Below, piece by piece: positions 27,452-50,552 of a stretch of 64,000 nt of DNA. Location: positions 558,001 to 622,000 of the forward strand of contig CANKZM010000001.1 of the NCBI GenBank assembly GCA_947488305.1, read 5' to 3'. The notes beneath the pieces are model-generated. The model did no database searches. It was not told the DNA's origin and worked only from the letters and a program-made list of their open reading frames with translations. Position 1 is the first letter of the stretch. Each line of letters starts with the position of its first letter. The translations under genes and the position numbers were made by a program. The stretch is from an uncultured Roseobacter sp. GTDB lineage: Bacteria > Pseudomonadota > Alphaproteobacteria > Rhodobacterales > Rhodobacteraceae.

Positions 27452-28636
27452 TCAGGTCGAGACCATCAGAGCCTCTAACCCATGAAAATGATAGGTGTTC
27501 GCGTATGTGGGAGCCCCTTCTAACTGCAAGTCAGGATAGGCGTCGAACAGGCGTTGCAACCCGATCCTGAGCTCCAATCGCGCAAGGGGCGCACCGACAC
27601 AGAAGTGCAACCCACCGCCAAAGGCCGCATGCGGGAAGGATGGCCGGAAGGGATTGAAAAGCTGAGGGTCAGGGATGGCGCGCGGGTCGTGTCCGGCGGC
27701 ACCCAAAACCAGCATGATCTCTTGCCCGGGTTCCAGTTGATGGCCCCCGACGGTAACCGGTTCATAGACGAAGCGGTTAAAAATGTGCAGCGGCGGGTCA
27801 AAACGCAGAATTTCTTCGACAACGTCATTGGTAATTGTTGGTCGCGGGTTCAACGTAAAGAAACGGGTTTCAAGCAGCGTTTTGACGGCATTCCCCATCG
27901 TATGCACGGTGGCTTCATGTCCTGCGTTCAGCAATAAGATGCAGGTGCCGATCAATTCCTGGCGGGTGAGTTTTTGCCCCAGTTCTTCCGCCCTTATGAG
28001 CTCGCTCAGAAGATCGTTTCCCGGGTTTTTCCGGCGGTAATCGATGAGGTCGGACAAAAAGGCGGTGAACTCCGCTGCCGCTTGGTTCGCGGCGACTTCA
28101 GTATGTTTTGTGCGGCCAGCTTGATACATGGCGACCATTGCGTTTGACCAGCGCAACAAGTCGCCGGATGTTTCTTCGGGTACCCCAAGTAGTTGCGCGA
28201 TCACGTGGACAGGTAAGATCGCGCAATAGGCGGGCAGCAAGTCGAATGTGCCTTTCGGAATTGTTGCAATCAGTGTGTCGCAAATCTCATGGATGTCTGG
28301 TTTCAACCGTTCAATGCGTCCCGTGGTGAAGGCGCGCAGAACAAGGCTGCGAAGACGTGTGTGATCCGGTGGCTCCAGTTCCAGCATCGAGACGTCTTCC
28401 AGAGCGGCAAACGCCGCAAGATGGGAAGGTGAGGAAGATTTCAGATCGGCAGGTACCGCGCGCCCCAATCGGCGATCACGCAAGAGAGACCGGATTGTTA
28501 CGGCATCAAAAACGGCGACTTTTCCATAATCTTCCCAGAACCGAATTGGATCGTCGTCCTCCAGGACTTCCGCGTAGGTCGCATAGGGGTTCTGGACAAA
28601 TCTGTGATCGAGTGGGGATTGGCGCAGTGATTTCAT
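27452..28636 (-). CDS. Cytochrome P450 (bacterial class I type)
   Basis: Soluble heme monooxygenase of 394 residues. Visible are the I-helix oxygen-activation motif NAGHEATVHTMG, the K-helix EEILR, and the heme-binding FGGGLHFCVGAPLAR with the axial cysteine. No ferredoxin or ferredoxin reductase gene adjoins, so redox partners must come from elsewhere (fpr lies 5 kb away). Substrate unknown. Start ATG 28636 lies 58 bp from the divergent dctB start; an extended frame to 28696 would overlap it. Confidence 0.92.
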   Translation of the reverse strand: MKSLRQSPLDHRFVQNPYATYAEVLEDDDPIRFWEDYGKVAVFDAVTIRSLLRDRRLGRAVPADLKSSSPSHLAAFAALEDVSMLELEPPDHTRLRSLVLRAFTTGRIERLKPDIHEICDTLIATIPKGTFDLLPAYCAILPVHVIAQLLGVPEETSGDLLRWSNAMVAMYQAGRTKHTEVAANQAAAEFTAFLSDLIDYRRKNPGNDLLSELIRAEELGQKLTRQELIGTCILLLNAGHEATVHTMGNAVKTLLETRFFTLNPRPTITNDVVEEILRFDPPLHIFNRFVYEPVTVGGHQLEPGQEIMLVLGAAGHDPRAIPDPQLFNPFRPSFPHAAFGGGLHFCVGAPLARLELRIGLQRLFDAYPDLQLEGAPTYANTYHFHGLEALMVST

Positions 28637-28694
28637 GGGGTCTTTAATGCGCATGCCACTGGCCAAGGCAAGAGTGCCTTTGTACACTGCGGCC

Positions 28695-30443
28695 ATGCGC
28701 GCCTTGTTCTTTCAACGACTTGCAGTGACCTGCGCCTTCGTGGTTGCGGTCGCAGGTATTTCGGTTGGGGTCTGGCGCTATGGGTACCTGCAGGCGCTGG
28801 ACCAGCTGTCAAGGCAAGGGGCTGCTGATCTCGCTTTGGCCAGTGACCGGCTGGTCGGGCAGTTGGAGCGGTATCGCGAGCTTTCAGTGCTATTGGCGGA
28901 TCATCCGACGGTTGCGGCCCTCGCACAGGGCGGCGACGGTGAGCGTGCGGCGGCCCTTTTCCTTGAGGTGGCGGATAAAACCGGCGCGCTTGATGTGATG
29001 TTCGTTGATGCATCTGGTGAATTGCGGGCGGCCGCGCATACCCAAACCACGGCTAATCTCGCTGCGATGCCCTTCGTGCGGCGCGCGCAACAAGGGGCGT
29101 TGGGGTGGGGACATGGCGTCGACGCGCCTTTGGCACCACGCGCTTTTTACCATGCAGCACCTGTCTTTGGGGCACAAGGCCAGGTCATTGGCACCACAAT
29201 CGTTGCAGCAGGCATAACAGCAATCGAGGATGAGTGGCGAGGCGGATTCCGCCCGGTGTTTTTTACAGACGACAGCGGTCAGGTATTTGTCACCAACCGC
29301 TCTGAGCTGGTTGGGTGGCGGCGGCCCGATGGCGCCGCGGGGTTGATCTCGGATCAGGGAGAGGAACGCCCCTTTGACAGCTACCAAACCGGAGGACACG
29401 AAGTTTGGCAGGTGTCATGGGGGCCTTATCTACCGAAAGCAGCCCTGCATCTGGCGCAGGACCTTCCGATTATCGGGTTGGTAGGAGAGACATTGGTTGA
29501 TGTAGCACCCGCCAGGCGTTTGGCAGTTTTGCAGGCGGCCGTTGTGGCGACGCTTTGTTTTGCATTTGGTGCCTTGTTATTTCTGGCGGCCGAGCGGCGT
29601 CATGCGCTGGCAAGGATCAATGCGGAACTGGAAACCCGCGTGCAGCGGCGTACCCACGCTCTTTCCGAGTCGAACGCAGCATTACGGCGAGAGGCGGAGG
29701 AGCGCGAGCAAGCACAGGCAGCACTTGCGCGGGCGCAAGCGGATTTGCTTCAGGCTGGAAAGCTGAGCGCTTTGGGGCAGATGAGCGCCGGGATCAGCCA
29801 CGAGCTGAATCAACCGTTGATGGCGATCCGGTCATTTGCCGAAAACGCAGTGCAGTTCCAAAAGCGCGATCGTCCCGACCACGTCGAGGATAACCTCAAC
29901 CGGATTTCGGAAATGGCCCGACGGATTGGGCGCATCATTCAGAACCTGAGGGCCTTTTCTAAACAGCAGGTCGAACCGATGACCCGCGTGGATCTGAGAG
30001 ACGTATTGACGGATGCTATAGACATGGTTTCCCAGAAAGCGCAGGACACTGGCGCAGAGATTACGTTGAATTTCCCGGACGGGTCAGTCTGGGTCAAAGG
30101 CGGAGAGGTACGGCTGGGCCAGATATTCGTAAACCTGATGACCAATGCGCTGGATGCGATGGTCGATAGCCCGGAAAAGCGCCTGACGGTGACTCTAAGG
30201 CACGATAAAGCCATCCTGATAGATTTCCGCGACACTGGCCCCGGGGTTGATGTGCCGGAAAAAGTGTTCGATCCGTTTTACTCGACCAAGGCGGTAGGGG
30301 CGGCTGAAGGTATGGGGCTAGGACTGTCGATCTCTTATGGCATCGCAAAGAGTTTCGGCGGTGACATTCGTGTGCGCAATTGTGATCCCGGCGCGCTCTT
30401 CATCGTTGAGTTGCAACCTTGGGAGGCGCAAGAAGCAGCATGA
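28695..30443 (+). CDS. dctB: C4-dicarboxylate sensor histidine kinase
   Basis: Membrane sensor of 582 residues: transmembrane helix 1 (about 7-29), a periplasmic PAS/Cache-type sensor domain (about 35-270), transmembrane helix 2 (about 275-299), a coiled-coil linker, then the HisKA domain with phospho-acceptor His 369 (GISHELNQPL) and the HATPase domain (NLMTNALDAM, DTGPGV, GMGLGLSI). This is the DctB layout, and the gene overlaps dctD by ATGA and precedes the TRAP transporter operon. Likely senses succinate, malate or fumarate. Confidence 0.92.
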   Translation: MRALFFQRLAVTCAFVVAVAGISVGVWRYGYLQALDQLSRQGAADLALASDRLVGQLERYRELSVLLADHPTVAALAQGGDGERAAALFLEVADKTGALDVMFVDASGELRAAAHTQTTANLAAMPFVRRAQQGALGWGHGVDAPLAPRAFYHAAPVFGAQGQVIGTTIVAAGITAIEDEWRGGFRPVFFTDDSGQVFVTNRSELVGWRRPDGAAGLISDQGEERPFDSYQTGGHEVWQVSWGPYLPKAALHLAQDLPIIGLVGETLVDVAPARRLAVLQAAVVATLCFAFGALLFLAAERRHALARINAELETRVQRRTHALSESNAALRREAEEREQAQAALARAQADLLQAGKLSALGQMSAGISHELNQPLMAIRSFAENAVQFQKRDRPDHVEDNLNRISEMARRIGRIIQNLRAFSKQQVEPMTRVDLRDVLTDAIDMVSQKAQDTGAEITLNFPDGSVWVKGGEVRLGQIFVNLMTNALDAMVDSPEKRLTVTLRHDKAILIDFRDTGPGVDVPEKVFDPFYSTKAVGAAEGMGLGLSISYGIAKSFGGDIRVRNCDPGALFIVELQPWEAQEAA

Positions 30444-31672
30444 GCCGACAAGTGCTCCTCGTAGACGATGATAGTGCGGTGCGGGACGCTTTGGCCCAAA
30501 CGCTGGAACTCGCTGATATCGAACCCTTGGCGGCAAGCTCCTTTGTCGCGGCGAAGGACCATATCACACGGGATTTTAACGGCGTTGTTTTGTCTGACTT
30601 GCGCATGCCCGGTCGGGATGGATTTCACCTTTTGACCTATGCACGTGGGCAGGATCCGGAACTACCTGTCATCCTGTTGACCGGCGAAGGCGACATTCCG
30701 ACCGCGATGAAGGCTGTCGAGCAAGGCGCTTATGATTTTCTGGAAAAACCTTGTGCACCAACAGACTTGATTGCCGTATTGGAGAGTGCTCTGGAGGCCC
30801 GCCGGGGGGTCCTTGAAATGCGCGCGCTTCGGTCAGCACTGGAAACGGGGGATCCGGCAGCGCGTATGCTGTTTGGCATTTCACAGCAGGCCGATGGGCT
30901 GCGCGCCCGCGTGCGCAGGGTTGCGATGACAGATACCGAGGTCCTGGTTTCAGGCGATCCGGGGACGGGCGTGTCGAAAGTCGCCGAGGTCATTCATTTG
31001 TGCTCAGCGCGTTCCAAAGCGCCCTTCCTGAAGCGCGCCGCCTCTGGCATGGACAGTACCAGCCTGCATGATGCTATCGCTGCTGCTCAGACTGGCAGCT
31101 TGTTTATCGACGAGATTTCGCAATTGCCGGCTCAGGCACAGATCGCCTTGATGGAGAAGCTTGAATCGGGCAGCACCACACGTGTTATTGCGGGTACGAA
31201 CCGTGATCTCAAAGCCTGTGTTGCGGCCGGTACATTCAACACGGAACTCTATTACCGACTGGATGTTACACCTGTTCAAATACCGTCTCTGGCGGAACGC
31301 CCGGAAGACATACCAGTGCTCTTTCGGCATTATGTGGAACAGGCCAGCGAACAGGCGGGATTGTCTGCGCCGCCGGTAACGCCTGCGGTTACCTCTCGAT
31401 TGATGGCTCTGGATTGGCCAGGCAATGCACGTGCTTTGATGTCGGAAGCGATGCGCTTTGCTTTGGGTCTATCCGAAGAGACTATGCCAGATGCGGAGCT
31501 TGGGCTTGCCGAACATCTCGCGCAGTTTGAACAAAATCTGTTGGAACAGGCCTTACGTCGTGCAGAAGGGAAGGCAGTGGAGGCGGCACGGGCTTTGAAG
31601 CTGCCGCGCAAGACCTTCTATGACAAACTGGCCCGTCACGGGATTCGTCCCGAAGAGTTCCGCCGGGAATAG
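30440..31672 (+). CDS. dctD: DctD-type response regulator with degenerate AAA+ domain
   Basis: A 410-residue NtrC-family regulator. The receiver domain (about 4-118) has the phospho-acceptor Asp 53 and is intact. The AAA+ domain is unusual: Walker A reads GDPGTGVSK (172-180), with valine in place of the catalytic lysine, and the GAFTGA loop that contacts sigma-54 is missing together with about 25 residues between FLKRAASG and TGSLFIDEIS. Walker B (GSLFIDEI, about 219-226) and the C-terminal Fis-type helix-turn-helix (about 383-407) remain. It is therefore expected to act without sigma-54. Rhodobacter capsulatus NtrC is a known precedent for activation of sigma-70 polymerase without GAFTGA. 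Overlaps dctB by ATGA. Confidence 0.9.
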   Translation: MSRQVLLVDDDSAVRDALAQTLELADIEPLAASSFVAAKDHITRDFNGVVLSDLRMPGRDGFHLLTYARGQDPELPVILLTGEGDIPTAMKAVEQGAYDFLEKPCAPTDLIAVLESALEARRGVLEMRALRSALETGDPAARMLFGISQQADGLRARVRRVAMTDTEVLVSGDPGTGVSKVAEVIHLCSARSKAPFLKRAASGMDSTSLHDAIAAAQTGSLFIDEISQLPAQAQIALMEKLESGSTTRVIAGTNRDLKACVAAGTFNTELYYRLDVTPVQIPSLAERPEDIPVLFRHYVEQASEQAGLSAPPVTPAVTSRLMALDWPGNARALMSEAMRFALGLSEETMPDAELGLAEHLAQFEQNLLEQALRRAEGKAVEAARALKLPRKTFYDKLARHGIRPEEFRRE

Positions 31673-31722
31673 TGTGCGGAAATTCGCACAGTTGTCAGGC
31701 GTGCTGTGTGGCCATTCGCACA
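31673..31722 (+). promoter_or_regulatory. Twin palindromic operators upstream of dctP
   Basis: TGTGCGGAAATTCGCACA (31673-31690) and TGTGTGGCCATTCGCACA (31705-31722), 32 bp apart start to start (three helical turns). Each has near-perfect 6-bp arms TGTGYG / CGCACA. They begin right behind the dctD stop in the 229-bp dctD-dctP spacer and are the obvious candidate DctD sites. An AT-rich TATATAAA at about 31766 could be the -10 region. No TGGCAC-N5-TTGC sigma-54 promoter was seen. Confidence 0.65.
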
Positions 31723-31901
31723 ATTTTTATGCCAAGCACATGAGGCAAAGCCTTCAATGTACTGTATATAAATGGAAAAATATTCATAAGCACATAGGTG
31801 TATCCGACCCTTGCACCAATCCGGTTAACACTGTTTTCTTTACGGCAGTGCACCTTCAGGGAGAGGTGCCGCTTTTGAAACTGTTTCTGGGAGGAAGCAA
31901 T

Positions 31902-32903
31902 ATGAGAGTACTCACCGCCGCTTTGACGGCATTGACGCTGACTGTAAGTGCGGGCGCCGTTCAGGCCGCTTGTGATGACGGCGAAGTTGTTATCAAATTC
32001 AGCCACGTGACCAACACAGACCGCCACCCTAAAGGGATCGCGGCAAGTCTGCTGCAAGAGCGTGTAAACGAGGAAATGAACGGCAAGGCCTGCATGGAAG
32101 TTTTCCCGCAGTCCACGCTCTACAACGATGATCAGGTGCTGGAAGCGCTGTTGCAGGGCGACGTTCAACTCGCAGCCCCGTCACTGTCCAAGTTCGAGCA
32201 ATTCACCAAGCAATTCCGGATCTTCGATCTGCCCTTCATGTTCAAAAACGTCGAAGCGGTAGATGCATTCCAGGCCTCTGAAACGGGCCAGGCGATGAAA
32301 GAATCCATGACGCGTCGGGGTCTGCTTGGGTTGGAGTTTTGGCACAACGGCATGAAGCAAATGTCGGCCAACGTGCCGCTCAACTCACCATCAGATGCCA
32401 ACGGCCTGAAATTCCGCGTGCAGAACTCTGACGTTCTGAAGGCTCAGATGGCAGCCCTTGGTGGATCACCTCAGCCGATGGCGTTTTCCGAGGTCTATGG
32501 CGCTTTGCAAACAGGCGTTGTGGATGGACAAGAGAACACATGGTCCAACATCTACGGCCAGAAGTTCTTTGAAGTTCAGGATGGTATCACTGAAACCAAC
32601 CACGGCATCATCGATTACATGGTCGTAACCTCTGTTGACTGGTGGGAAAGCCTCGACGGCGATGTGCGCGATCAACTGCGTACGATCCTTGCCGAAGTCA
32701 CAACCACCCGCAACGCGGAATCTGCCGCGGTAAACCAGCAGGCCAAACAGGCTGTGCTTGATGCCGGTGGCGTCGTGCGTGAACTGGACGCAGCAGCCCG
32801 TGAAGAATGGGTCGCTGCCATGAAACCCGTTTGGGAGCAGTTCAAGGACGACGTTGGTCAGGAAAATATCGACGCCGCGCAAGCGATCAACGCCGGTTTC
32901 TGA
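31902..32903 (+). CDS. dctP: TRAP transporter C4-dicarboxylate-binding protein
   Basis: Periplasmic substrate-binding protein of the DctPQM TRAP system, 333 residues with a Sec signal peptide (residues 1-22, ending SAGAVQA). The DctP family core is clear: KFSHVTNTDRHPKG at the mature N-terminus, GLKFRVQNSDVLKAQMAALGG region with the carboxylate-binding arginine, and GVVDGQENTWSNIY. Start ATG 31902 follows GGGAGGAAG. A hairpin separates it from dctQ. Confidence 0.95.
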   Translation: MRVLTAALTALTLTVSAGAVQAACDDGEVVIKFSHVTNTDRHPKGIAASLLQERVNEEMNGKACMEVFPQSTLYNDDQVLEALLQGDVQLAAPSLSKFEQFTKQFRIFDLPFMFKNVEAVDAFQASETGQAMKESMTRRGLLGLEFWHNGMKQMSANVPLNSPSDANGLKFRVQNSDVLKAQMAALGGSPQPMAFSEVYGALQTGVVDGQENTWSNIYGQKFFEVQDGITETNHGIIDYMVVTSVDWWESLDGDVRDQLRTILAEVTTTRNAESAAVNQQAKQAVLDAGGVVRELDAAAREEWVAAMKPVWEQFKDDVGQENIDAAQAINAGF

Positions 32904-32970: not shown

Positions 32971-33651
32971 ATGTCGCATTCCTATGAGGCACAGTCTCTG
33001 CTTGGGCGGGTCGTCAATGAAATCGAGGAAACCGCAATTGCAGTGATCCTCGGATTGATGACCATCCTGACATTCATCAACGTGGTTTTGCGGTACGGCT
33101 TCAACACAGGCATCATCTGGGGTCTGGAAGCGGTCACCTTCCTATTCGCCTGGCTTGTACTCTTTGGAGTGAGCTACGCGGTCAAGATTACAGCGCATCT
33201 GGGTGTTGATGCTGTCATCAACCTCTTTTCCCCGCCAATCAGGCGTGTGTTTGCACTGTTCGCCGGCGGGATTTGTATTGTCTACGCCGCGTTGGTGTTC
33301 AAAGGCGCGTGGGACTATTGGGCGCCCTTCGCGGGCTTCGACGCGACCAGCGGGCGTTGGTTCCCAACCGGGTTTGAAAACAGTCGCGATCAGGGCTGGT
33401 ACGAAGTGGTTGATATCCCGATGCCTGAATGGCTGCGCTGGATCGAACCGATTTTCAATGAGGGGGAAGCGTACGAGAAAATTCCTCGCTTCATTCCCTA
33501 TGTGATCCTGCCGTTTGGGATGGGGCTGCTGCTCTTTCGTTTTGTGCAGGCCACGGTACGGATTTTCCGCGGTGATGCCACCAGCCTGATTGTCAGCCAC
33601 GAGGCAGAAGATGCCGTGGAAGACGTCAAACATATGAACGCAGGGGACTGA
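32971..33651 (+). CDS. dctQ: TRAP transporter small membrane subunit
   Basis: A 226-residue membrane protein with four hydrophobic helices (about 23-45, 50-75, 92-112, 175-197), the DctQ topology. The conserved LRYGFNTGIIWGLE segment after helix 1 is typical. There is a longer-than-usual loop (about 115-170) between helices 3 and 4, as in larger DctQ proteins for C4-dicarboxylates. GGGAGGGGG precedes ATG 32971. The gap to dctM is only 3 bases. Confidence 0.93.
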   Translation: MSHSYEAQSLLGRVVNEIEETAIAVILGLMTILTFINVVLRYGFNTGIIWGLEAVTFLFAWLVLFGVSYAVKITAHLGVDAVINLFSPPIRRVFALFAGGICIVYAALVFKGAWDYWAPFAGFDATSGRWFPTGFENSRDQGWYEVVDIPMPEWLRWIEPIFNEGEAYEKIPRFIPYVILPFGMGLLLFRFVQATVRIFRGDATSLIVSHEAEDAVEDVKHMNAGD

Positions 33652-33654
33652 TCC

Positions 33655-35034
33655 ATGGAAGTTGCAATTCTTTTCGCCATGGTGATTGGCCTGATGCTGG
33701 TCGGCGTACCGATCGCTGTCAGCCTGGGCATGTCCTCTATCGTTTTCCTGCTGGTCCTGAGTGACACGTCGCTTGGCTCTATCGCGCAAACGCTCTTTCA
33801 GGCGATGGCAGGGCACTACACTTTGCTCGCCATTCCCTTCTTCATCCTCGCGTCCAGCTTCATGTCCACAGGGGGTGTGGCGCGCAGGATCATCCGGTTT
33901 TCAATTGCCCTCGTTGGGCATTTACCGGGCGGTTTGGCCATTGCCGGTGTCTTTGCCTGTATGCTCTTTGCGGCACTCTCGGGCTCATCCCCAGCAACTG
34001 TCGTTGCCATTGGTTCGATCGTAATCGCGGGCATGCGTCAGGTGGGCTATACCAAGGATTTCGCCGCCGGTGTGATTGCTAACGCCGGCACCCTCGGCAT
34101 CTTGATCCCGCCCTCCATCGTGATGGTGGTCTATGCGTCGGCCACGGATGTCTCCGTCGGGCGCATGTTCCTTGCTGGCGTGATACCGGGCCTTATGGCC
34201 GGCACCATGCTGATGGTGACGATCTATATCATCGCCAAGATCCGCGACCTGCCCAAAGGCGAATGGCGCGGATGGGGTGAGGTATTTGAAGCGGGCCGAG
34301 AAGCTGGGTGGGGCTTGTTCCTCATCGTCATCATCCTCGGCGGTATCTACGGCGGTATCTTCACGCCAACGGAGGCGGCGGCGGTCGCAGCGGTTTATGC
34401 CTTCTTCATCGCCAGCTTCGTCTATCGGGATATGGGGCCCTTGCACGTCAAGGGGGAAGACGTGCAAAACCTCACCCTGATGCGCAAGCCCATTGCGCTG
34501 GTCACGGCCTTCTTTCACCGAGACACGCGCGATACGCTCTTTGACGCGGGCAAGCTGACCGTCACGCTGATGTTCATCATCGCCAATGCGTTGATCCTGA
34601 AACATGTTCTGACGGACGAGCAGATCCCTCAGCAGATCGCTGCCAGTATGCTGGAGGCGGGTTTCGGCCCGGTGGTCTTTCTAATCATAGTGAACGTGAT
34701 CCTGCTGATCGGCGGTCAGTTCATGGAGCCTTCAGGCCTCCTGGTGATCGTGGCGCCACTTGTGTTCCCAATTGCGATCGAGCTTGGCATTGATCCAATC
34801 CACCTCGGCATCATCATGGTTGTGAACATGGAGATCGGGATGATCACACCGCCAGTTGGTTTGAACCTCTTCGTGACTTCGGGCGTGGCGAACATGCCCA
34901 TGTGGGCGGTCGTGAAGGCGGCGCTTCCGTTCACGGCTGTCCTCTTCGTATTCCTGATCATGGTGACTTACATCCCGATCATCAGTACGTGGCTGCCAAC
35001 CACGGTGATGGGGCCAGAGATCATAGTCCAGTAA
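33655..35034 (+). CDS. dctM: TRAP transporter large membrane subunit
   Basis: The 459-residue membrane subunit that couples Na+ (or H+) flow to dicarboxylate uptake. About twelve hydrophobic helices and the family motifs FFILASSFMSTGG, ALSGSSPATVVAIGS and TLGILIPPSIVMVVYA are present; the C-terminal half contains GMITPPVGLNLFV. A cytoplasmic insertion around residues 260-290 is richer in charged residues. A terminator follows. Confidence 0.95.
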   Translation: MEVAILFAMVIGLMLVGVPIAVSLGMSSIVFLLVLSDTSLGSIAQTLFQAMAGHYTLLAIPFFILASSFMSTGGVARRIIRFSIALVGHLPGGLAIAGVFACMLFAALSGSSPATVVAIGSIVIAGMRQVGYTKDFAAGVIANAGTLGILIPPSIVMVVYASATDVSVGRMFLAGVIPGLMAGTMLMVTIYIIAKIRDLPKGEWRGWGEVFEAGREAGWGLFLIVIILGGIYGGIFTPTEAAAVAAVYAFFIASFVYRDMGPLHVKGEDVQNLTLMRKPIALVTAFFHRDTRDTLFDAGKLTVTLMFIIANALILKHVLTDEQIPQQIAASMLEAGFGPVVFLIIVNVILLIGGQFMEPSGLLVIVAPLVFPIAIELGIDPIHLGIIMVVNMEIGMITPPVGLNLFVTSGVANMPMWAVVKAALPFTAVLFVFLIMVTYIPIISTWLPTTVMGPEIIVQ

Positions 35035-48704: not shown

Positions 48705-48780
<76 letters not shown>

Positions 48781-50475: not shown

Positions 50476-50552
50476 GCGGTTGTAGCTCAGTTGGTTAGAG
50501 TACCGGCCTGTCACGCCGGGGGTCGCGGGTTCGAGCCCCGTCAACCGCGCCA
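50476..50552 (+). tRNA. tRNA-Asp (anticodon GTC)
   Basis: Cloverleaf of 77 bases with encoded CCA: acceptor GCGGTTG / CAACCGC, D arm GCTC-GAGT (one G-U pair), anticodon stem CCGGC / GCCGG with loop CTGTCAC (anticodon GTC), T arm GCGGG-TTCGAGC-CCCGT. A terminator follows directly. Confidence 0.97.

Follow-up and report, generated by a model that had tools for sequence, protein, structure and literature searches.

A putative sigma-70-class DctD with a re-cut P-loop and a retained sigma-54 enhancer layout in Rhodobacteraceae

The response regulator DctD encoded in a 64,000-nucleotide stretch of the genome of an uncultured Roseobacter sp. (assembly GCA_947488305.1, contig CANKZM010000001.1, positions 558,001 to 622,000 of the forward strand; hereafter the window) is, with a probability that we put at roughly 0.75, a sigma-70-class regulator that has kept the layout of a sigma-54 enhancer, similar to NtrC and HupR of Rhodobacter capsulatus but with a re-cut P-loop in its AAA+ domain. 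The protein appears to have retained its receiver, its binding sites and the bend of the DNA while giving up the contact to sigma-54 and, judged by its sequence, ATPase activity. The initial annotation of the window had suggested a conversion of this kind, by analogy with R. capsulatus NtrC and with an additional loss in the P-loop, and the predicted footprint of a sigma-70-type promoter fits this proposal. Beyond it, our sequence comparisons point to a clade-wide loss that includes genomes with rpoN (the gene of sigma-54), a lysine moved by two residues, loss of the first arginine finger, and retention of enhancer sites together with a block resembling a binding site of integration host factor (IHF).

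Losses and conservation in the AAA+ domain

The dctD reading frame (30440–31672, + strand) encodes 410 amino acids in which Pfam places a receiver (residues 5–114), Sigma54_activat in two stretches, an AAA lid and HTH_8, i.e., the order of receiver, AAA+ domain and Fis-type helix-turn-helix (HTH) known from group I bacterial enhancer-binding proteins (bEBPs) of sigma-54. The receiver matches the solved DctD receiver (PDB 1qkk) with an E value of 9.6e-31. The initial annotation had read the P-loop as GDPGTGVSK in place of GxxGxGK and the GAFTGA segment as deleted, with receiver, Walker B and Fis-type HTH remaining, and Pfam and alignment bear this out. GDPGTGVSK comprises residues 172–180 (codons 30953–30979, + strand, from translation and alignment conservation), and V178 occupies the position of the Walker A lysine in an ungapped register to GETGTGKEV that is anchored by the subsequent ...VIH. 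Between the P-loop end and the Walker B Asp-Glu (FIDE in the window protein) lie 45 amino acids compared to 64 in most looped relatives, and GAFTGA falls into the missing segment; another segment before sensor I, which carries RLGSN in canonical relatives, is absent as well. Among the features of a group I sigma-54 bEBP, the Walker B Asp-Glu is present while GAFTGA loop, Walker A lysine and first arginine finger are missing (the motif names are those that we presume for this alignment, and the finger is placed where we take it to be from PspF).

We searched 149 genomes of the family (one for each genus); 92 of them yielded a total of 96 matches, and 90 of these matches were fetched (the 6 left out all show at most 49% identity). 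One of these, L152 (G009 C3), has an in-frame stop near codon 90 of dctD in a genome without rpoN match and was excluded from the protein alignment; apparent stops in four other matches are the terminal stop. The remaining 89 family DctDs were aligned alongside 80 named loci, some of them from the same genomes as the family loci. This comparison across Rhodobacterales, proposed as a check in the initial annotation, shows that neither the Walker A lysine (0/64) nor the GAFTGA loop (absent from 64/64) is found in any of the 64 family DctDs sharing at least 52% identity with the window protein, while the next sequence, at 46%, has the Walker A lysine. Since these losses are common to all 64, sequencing error or chance can be ruled out. 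The first arginine finger is likewise missing throughout (0/64, with no arginine at position 267). In contrast to these losses, all 64 proteins have Lys180 two residues downstream of the Walker A position, glycines 175 and 177, the sensor II arginine R331 and each of the receiver residues D10, D53 and K103, and most share glycine 172 (63/64), the Walker B aspartate D224 (61/64), the Walker B glutamate (53/64, replaced in 11) and the second arginine (54/64).

This residue pattern bears on whether the domain still handles nucleotide. As a refinement of the sigma-70-class reading, it is possible, if doubtful, that the relocated Lys180 still lets DctD bind ATP and perhaps hydrolyse it slowly, with nucleotide occupancy as a needed switch; the invariant Lys180 and R331, the P-loop glycines and the largely conserved D224 would fit such a switch, as would the report in parts of PMC10274813 that R. 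capsulatus NtrC needs ATP binding but not hydrolysis. It is opposed by the disappearance of the Walker A lysine and the first arginine finger and by the replaced Walker B glutamate in 11 of the 64 proteins.

Median dN/dS is 0.064 for the receiver, 0.115 for the AAA+ domain, 0.04 for the lid and 0.059 for the HTH (40–50 comparisons each; 46 for AAA+). Together with the invariant residues, the conserved pair of operator sites (retained in 53/58 loci, see below) and the growth phenotype of a dct-locus mutant in Ruegeria pomeroyi, the receiver, HTH and AAA+ values make it very improbable that DctD is a functionless, decaying paralogue, even though several catalytic motifs are gone, the dctD of L152 has an in-frame stop and the threshold used gives no match in 11 of the 19 genus genomes. 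We accordingly rejected a pseudogene because of the dN/dS values, the invariant residues and the conserved operators.

In a tree of 189 sequences (FastTree support values, midpoint-rooted, root uncertain), the DctDs without Walker A lysine, hereafter K-less, form one clade of 106 sequences (support 0.912) with Walker B mostly retained. A second clade (18 sequences, support 1.0) mostly retains the Walker A lysine, with arginine in two members, and has lost Walker B in all 17 lysine-bearing rows aligned. Arginine also replaces this lysine in the trio L093, L096 and L102, and the loop region of L090 and L092 is shortened (54 compared to 64) with intact Walker A and B. A single route of ATPase-site loss is unsupported, as the K-less and the Walker B-less clade lost different motifs; the simplest reading of these sequences is that the loop would have been lost first, with the ATPase site then eroding in different ways. 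The Amylibacter-like DctDs (L097, L103, L104, L106, L109, L110, L112, L116, L117, L121–L123) retain the Walker A lysine but neither Walker B nor the sensor II arginine, and no window-like dctP was found in their fetched flanks. A separate Rhodobacterales group of DctD-like proteins (many of L165–L184 and L199–L227) has GAFPGA, GAFAGA or similar in place of GAFTGA, with Walker motifs mostly intact and family genomes both with and without rpoN; it is possibly another exit from sigma-54.

DctD sites, IHF-like block and promoter upstream of dctP

Two predicted DctD sites lie upstream of dctP, site 1 (TGTGCGGAAATTCGCACA, 31673–31690, unstranded) and, 32 bp away, site 2 (TGTGTGGCCATTCGCACA, 31705–31722, unstranded). 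Site 1 matches TGTGCG-N6-CGCACA exactly and is alone in doing so in the 4.8 Mb genome. Both palindromes resemble the Rhizobium DctD site given in passages of PMC11077940 as TGTGCGgaaatCCGCACA (also as TGTGCGgnnntCCGCACA), which occurs there in multiple copies upstream of dctA. A site pair with at least 20/24 matches is found at 53 of the 58 family loci with a K-less DctD and dctP nearby, and among the 112 entries scoring at least 19 (duplicates counted) the two sites are 33 bp apart in 64, 32 bp apart in 43 and 34 bp apart in 5. Site 2 with the following T run (31705–31732) forms a terminator-like stem that scores as an intrinsic terminator and may also end transcription of dctBD.

For the region downstream of these sites we compiled 87 upstream regions (site pair at least 20/24, DctD identity at least 50%, mutual identity below 90%), in which two elements recur at fixed offsets: TTGAGC-N17-TTYACT and an IHF-like block of YAANNNNYTGAWW followed by an A-tract. 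What we take to be the IHF consensus is found (at least 7/9) at offset 40–45 in 51/87 regions; local shuffles yield 4.3 on average and 10 at most. In two-fold held-out scoring, 54/87 promoters and 58/87 IHF-like blocks reach p≤0.05 with about 4 expected, and a spacer of 17 bp is seen in 31 sequences compared to 0–5 at each other length from 13 to 21. The block lies 55–57 bp from the −35 element in 39 of the 47 regions in which the promoter reaches p≤0.05 and the block p≤0.1. From site 2 it is 41–43 bp away in most regions and 31–33 bp in a few, the window among them with 32 bp, so that the distance there is shorter by about one helical turn.

In the window, the IHF-like block (CAATGTACTGTAT with an A-rich tail, 31755–31778, + strand) has a held-out p of 0.005, or 0.006 with the window out of training, and matches 6/9 of the consensus. 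The candidate sigma-70-type promoter (31811–31839, + strand) consists of −35 TTGCAC (31811–31816), 17 bp, and −10 TTTTCT (31834–31839), with a held-out p of 0.02 and 0/500 shuffles reaching its score with the window out of training; the dctP start would thus lie near 31846. Relative to this predicted start, the paired DctD sites fall at about −132/−164 in the window and about −142/−174 in most relatives. Seven congeners outside the training data all have the −35 at offset 100 (7/7, p 0 to 0.014, with L237 and L238 near-identical), and in five of them the IHF-like block is exactly 56 bp from the −35. The window −35, at offset 88, is 12 bp nearer than that of the congeners, at the same 56 bp from its IHF-like block. 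An alternative promoter within the AT-rich block was considered and set aside in favour of an IHF-like site, as its positions, at a fixed offset, fit the presumed IHF consensus with its A-tract. The window genome encodes three proteins assigned to the HU/IHF family as a whole.

Distribution of rpoN and the link to sigma-54

Profile searches of the window genome (completeness score 100%) with PF04963 and PF00309 gave no match, and a lone weak match to PF04552 was not taken as rpoN because it sits in what we recognize as a LacI-type protein. Remodelling of sigma-54 polymerase in this genome is therefore most unlikely. Of the other NtrC-family proteins in that genome, three were examined and are likewise without GAFTGA; we take one as NtrX-like, one as NtrC-like and the third as a second DctD, adjacent to a second DctB, and three weak PF00158 matches (L007–L009) fall outside this set. 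The second DctB/DctD-like pair (G000 C3, L231:5735–8845, − strand) includes a regulator with GETGTGK, without GAFTGA and with an altered Walker B (LEDI), and its adjoining genes are presumably purQ and rne.

In the 87 upstream regions, sigma-54-like sites are at chance (strong in 1/87 compared to 3% of shuffles), while the GAFTGA-bearing L094 and L100 combine strong sigma-54-like promoters with rpoN. L092, with rpoN and a shortened loop, and the arginine trio have sigma-54-like scores below the mark reached by L094 and L100. The window genome has no rpoN match and dctP no −24/−12 promoter, whereas a group I sigma-54 bEBP would need both; DctD shows instead the features of sigma-70-class NtrC-family regulators, i.e., no GAFTGA, distal sites and a sigma-70-type promoter that is called by sequence only and escapes a plain scan. 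The expectation of the initial annotation that such a protein should not remodel sigma-54 polymerase agrees with the negative profile searches and the chance level of sigma-54-like sites in the clade.

Across the family, rpoN is found in 40/149 genomes, including 11/64 with a K-less DctD and 29/85 others (Fisher p 0.025, kinship uncorrected). Of the named genomes tested, 9/40 have rpoN, among them those of L092, L094 and L100, and no match was found in three Ruegeria genomes tested, for which completeness was not given. Within the genus, 8/19 genomes have a K-less DctD at the threshold used, and rpoN is commoner with it (6/8) than without (2/11; p 0.024, kinship uncorrected); of the 8, the window genome and G371 are without it. 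The rpoN-positive congeners share the P-loop change and the dctP promoter, and the seven congeners outside the training data, six rpoN-positive and one rpoN-negative, all have their −35/−10 at the same position. Loss of rpoN as a requirement for the conversion was hence rejected: K-less DctDs occur in rpoN-positive genomes too, so rpoN loss is no precondition of the conversion, although the two show a weak association in the family.

The persistence of rpoN in these 11 family and 6 genus genomes would also suit a DctD that still activates sigma-54 polymerase through an unrecognised contact. We consider this extremely improbable given the window genome without rpoN match, the scarcity of strong sigma-54-like sites and the shared −35/−10 position of rpoN-positive and rpoN-negative congeners.

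Proposed mechanism and direction of control

We propose that DctB phosphorylates DctD at Asp53 when C4-dicarboxylates are present and that DctD dimers bind the two ancestral sites ~132 and ~164 bp upstream of the predicted start. An IHF-type bend ~80 bp upstream would bring DctD to the sigma-70-type promoter, where it may recruit or stabilise the housekeeping polymerase through contact, without ATP-driven remodelling. The AAA+ fold would be retained as a scaffold for assembly and contact, and Lys180, the Walker B aspartate and the sensor II arginine may still hold nucleotide. More tentatively, and with the odds somewhat against it, the whole clade may use enhancer-style activation of a sigma-70 promoter with an IHF-bent loop and no ATPase, the Lys180 P-loop serving as a static sensor of nucleotide or phosphate through which assembly is controlled, so that the sigma factor would have been swapped under an unchanged enhancer.

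Passages of PMC10130141 report that R. pomeroyi mutants of SPO2626 (dctM), SPO2628 (dctP) and SPO2630 grow 97–99% less on fumarate and 75–93% less on succinate; on malate growth is 49%, 11% and 13% lower, the last two values not significant. SPO2630 is termed a regulatory protein in parts of PMC10041152 and a sensor protein in parts of PMC4809877, and it is probably dctB rather than dctD. What the phenotype shows is a need for the two-component system at this locus; it does not establish DctD itself as an activator.

Another reading, which we regard as improbable, is that DctD acts on dctP as a repressor or anti-activator and that phosphorylation lifts this effect. Kinase-mutant phenotypes such as those in parts of PMC10130141 fit an activator or a repressor alike, and Caulobacter NtrC, without GAFTGA, is described in passages of PMC10274813 as repressing some sigma-70 promoters. 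The predicted DctD sites, however, lie ~130–165 bp upstream of the predicted start and not across the promoter, their spacing with the IHF-like block is a classic activator layout, and the dctP promoter is weak as expected of an activated one.

Several points weigh against a sigma-70-class activator. The SPO2630 phenotype is compatible with a repressor relieved by phosphorylation as long as SPO2630 is dctB, and the rarity of rpoN alongside K-less DctDs in the family (11/64 compared to 29/85) leaves some link to rpoN loss possible. A plain sigma-70 consensus scan of the window dctP upstream region finds no promoter, so the promoter would be weak and need activation. Held-out scores are not significant for 33/87 promoters and 29/87 IHF-like blocks, nor is the IHF-like block in 2/7 congeners outside training, and the −10 consensus differs between the training halves (TTCACT and TTTTCT). 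Both models were seeded from the consensus of the same data, and the 87 regions were selected by their site pair; given also the kinship of the sequences, the counts are not independent. Allowing up to one mismatch, TGTGCG-N6-CGCACA has 13 genome sites, equal to the reversed control pattern, which makes single weak sites uninformative.

The dct locus and its neighbours

The locus has the order dctB-dctD-dctPQM, all on the + strand. The sensor histidine kinase gene dctB (28635–30443, HisKA and HATPase_c) overlaps the start of dctD by 4 bp, and a dctB homologue adjoins dctD in every searched locus except L108 and L124. The genes of the tripartite ATP-independent periplasmic (TRAP) transporter encode the solute-binding protein DctP (31899–32903, PF03480, E 7.9e-103), the small membrane protein DctQ (32971–33651, PF04290) and the large membrane protein DctM (33655–35034, PF06808). 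With a paired dctB, adjoining C4-dicarboxylate transport genes and tandem Rhizobium-type DctD sites, the window protein is by its sequence context a true DctD and partner of the adjoining DctB. At gathering threshold, Rfam finds nothing in the window except two tRNA genes (48705–48777 and 50476–50549).

Comparison with known systems

The case illustrates how a regulator may abandon sigma-54 and still keep its DNA sites and looping layout in place; the target here, uptake of succinate, fumarate and malate by a TRAP transporter, is important to marine roseobacters. Natural tests of the need for ATP in enhancer action are offered by congeners with and without rpoN that share P-loop change and dctP promoter position, and by GAFTGA-bearing relatives with sigma-54-like promoters at the same gene.

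NtrC of R. capsulatus has enhancer-like sites more than 100 bp upstream and an ordinary P-loop, HupR uses a distal site and IHF at hupSL and is active unphosphorylated, and DctD of Sinorhizobium and Rhizobium carries GAFTGA and works at dctA together with sigma-54. Like the window DctD, R. capsulatus NtrC is without the L1/GAFTGA loop, and it is reported to activate via sigma-70; the same deletion is said to be shared by NtrC of other Rhodobacterales (both in passages of PMC10274813). Different from this NtrC, which needs ATP binding according to the same passages, the window DctD has neither Walker A lysine nor first arginine finger and has the new Lys180. HupR is likewise an NtrC-family regulator dependent on sigma-70 (parts of PMC3162934) but belongs to another lineage with other site and signal. 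DctD of Sinorhizobium and Rhizobium shares the binding sequence TGTGCGgnnntCCGCACA and tandem sites at dctA, and stimulation by IHF is described for the R. leguminosarum system (passages of PMC11077940 and PMC9827912); the window DctD differs in its predicted target, dctPQM under a sigma-70-type promoter. Caulobacter NtrC, Vibrio cholerae VpsR, and E. coli TyrR and DhaR are further bEBP relatives without functional GAFTGA at sigma-70 promoters (passages of PMC10274813 and PMC3162934), but they are different lineages, and Caulobacter NtrC needs its Walker motifs (parts of PMC10274813). The passages of PMC10274813 and PMC3162934 on these relatives do not describe a relocated lysine, a defective GAFTGA in Jannaschia without rpoN is already noted in parts of PMC3162934, and a literature search limited to open-licence papers found no description of a K-less DctD. 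Sigma-70-dependent NtrC relatives are thus already known from R. capsulatus NtrC and HupR; what is distinct here, as far as sequences tell, is the re-cut P-loop with an invariant Lys180, the clade-wide fixed geometry of enhancer, IHF-like block and predicted promoter, and the natural pairs of rpoN-positive and rpoN-negative genomes.

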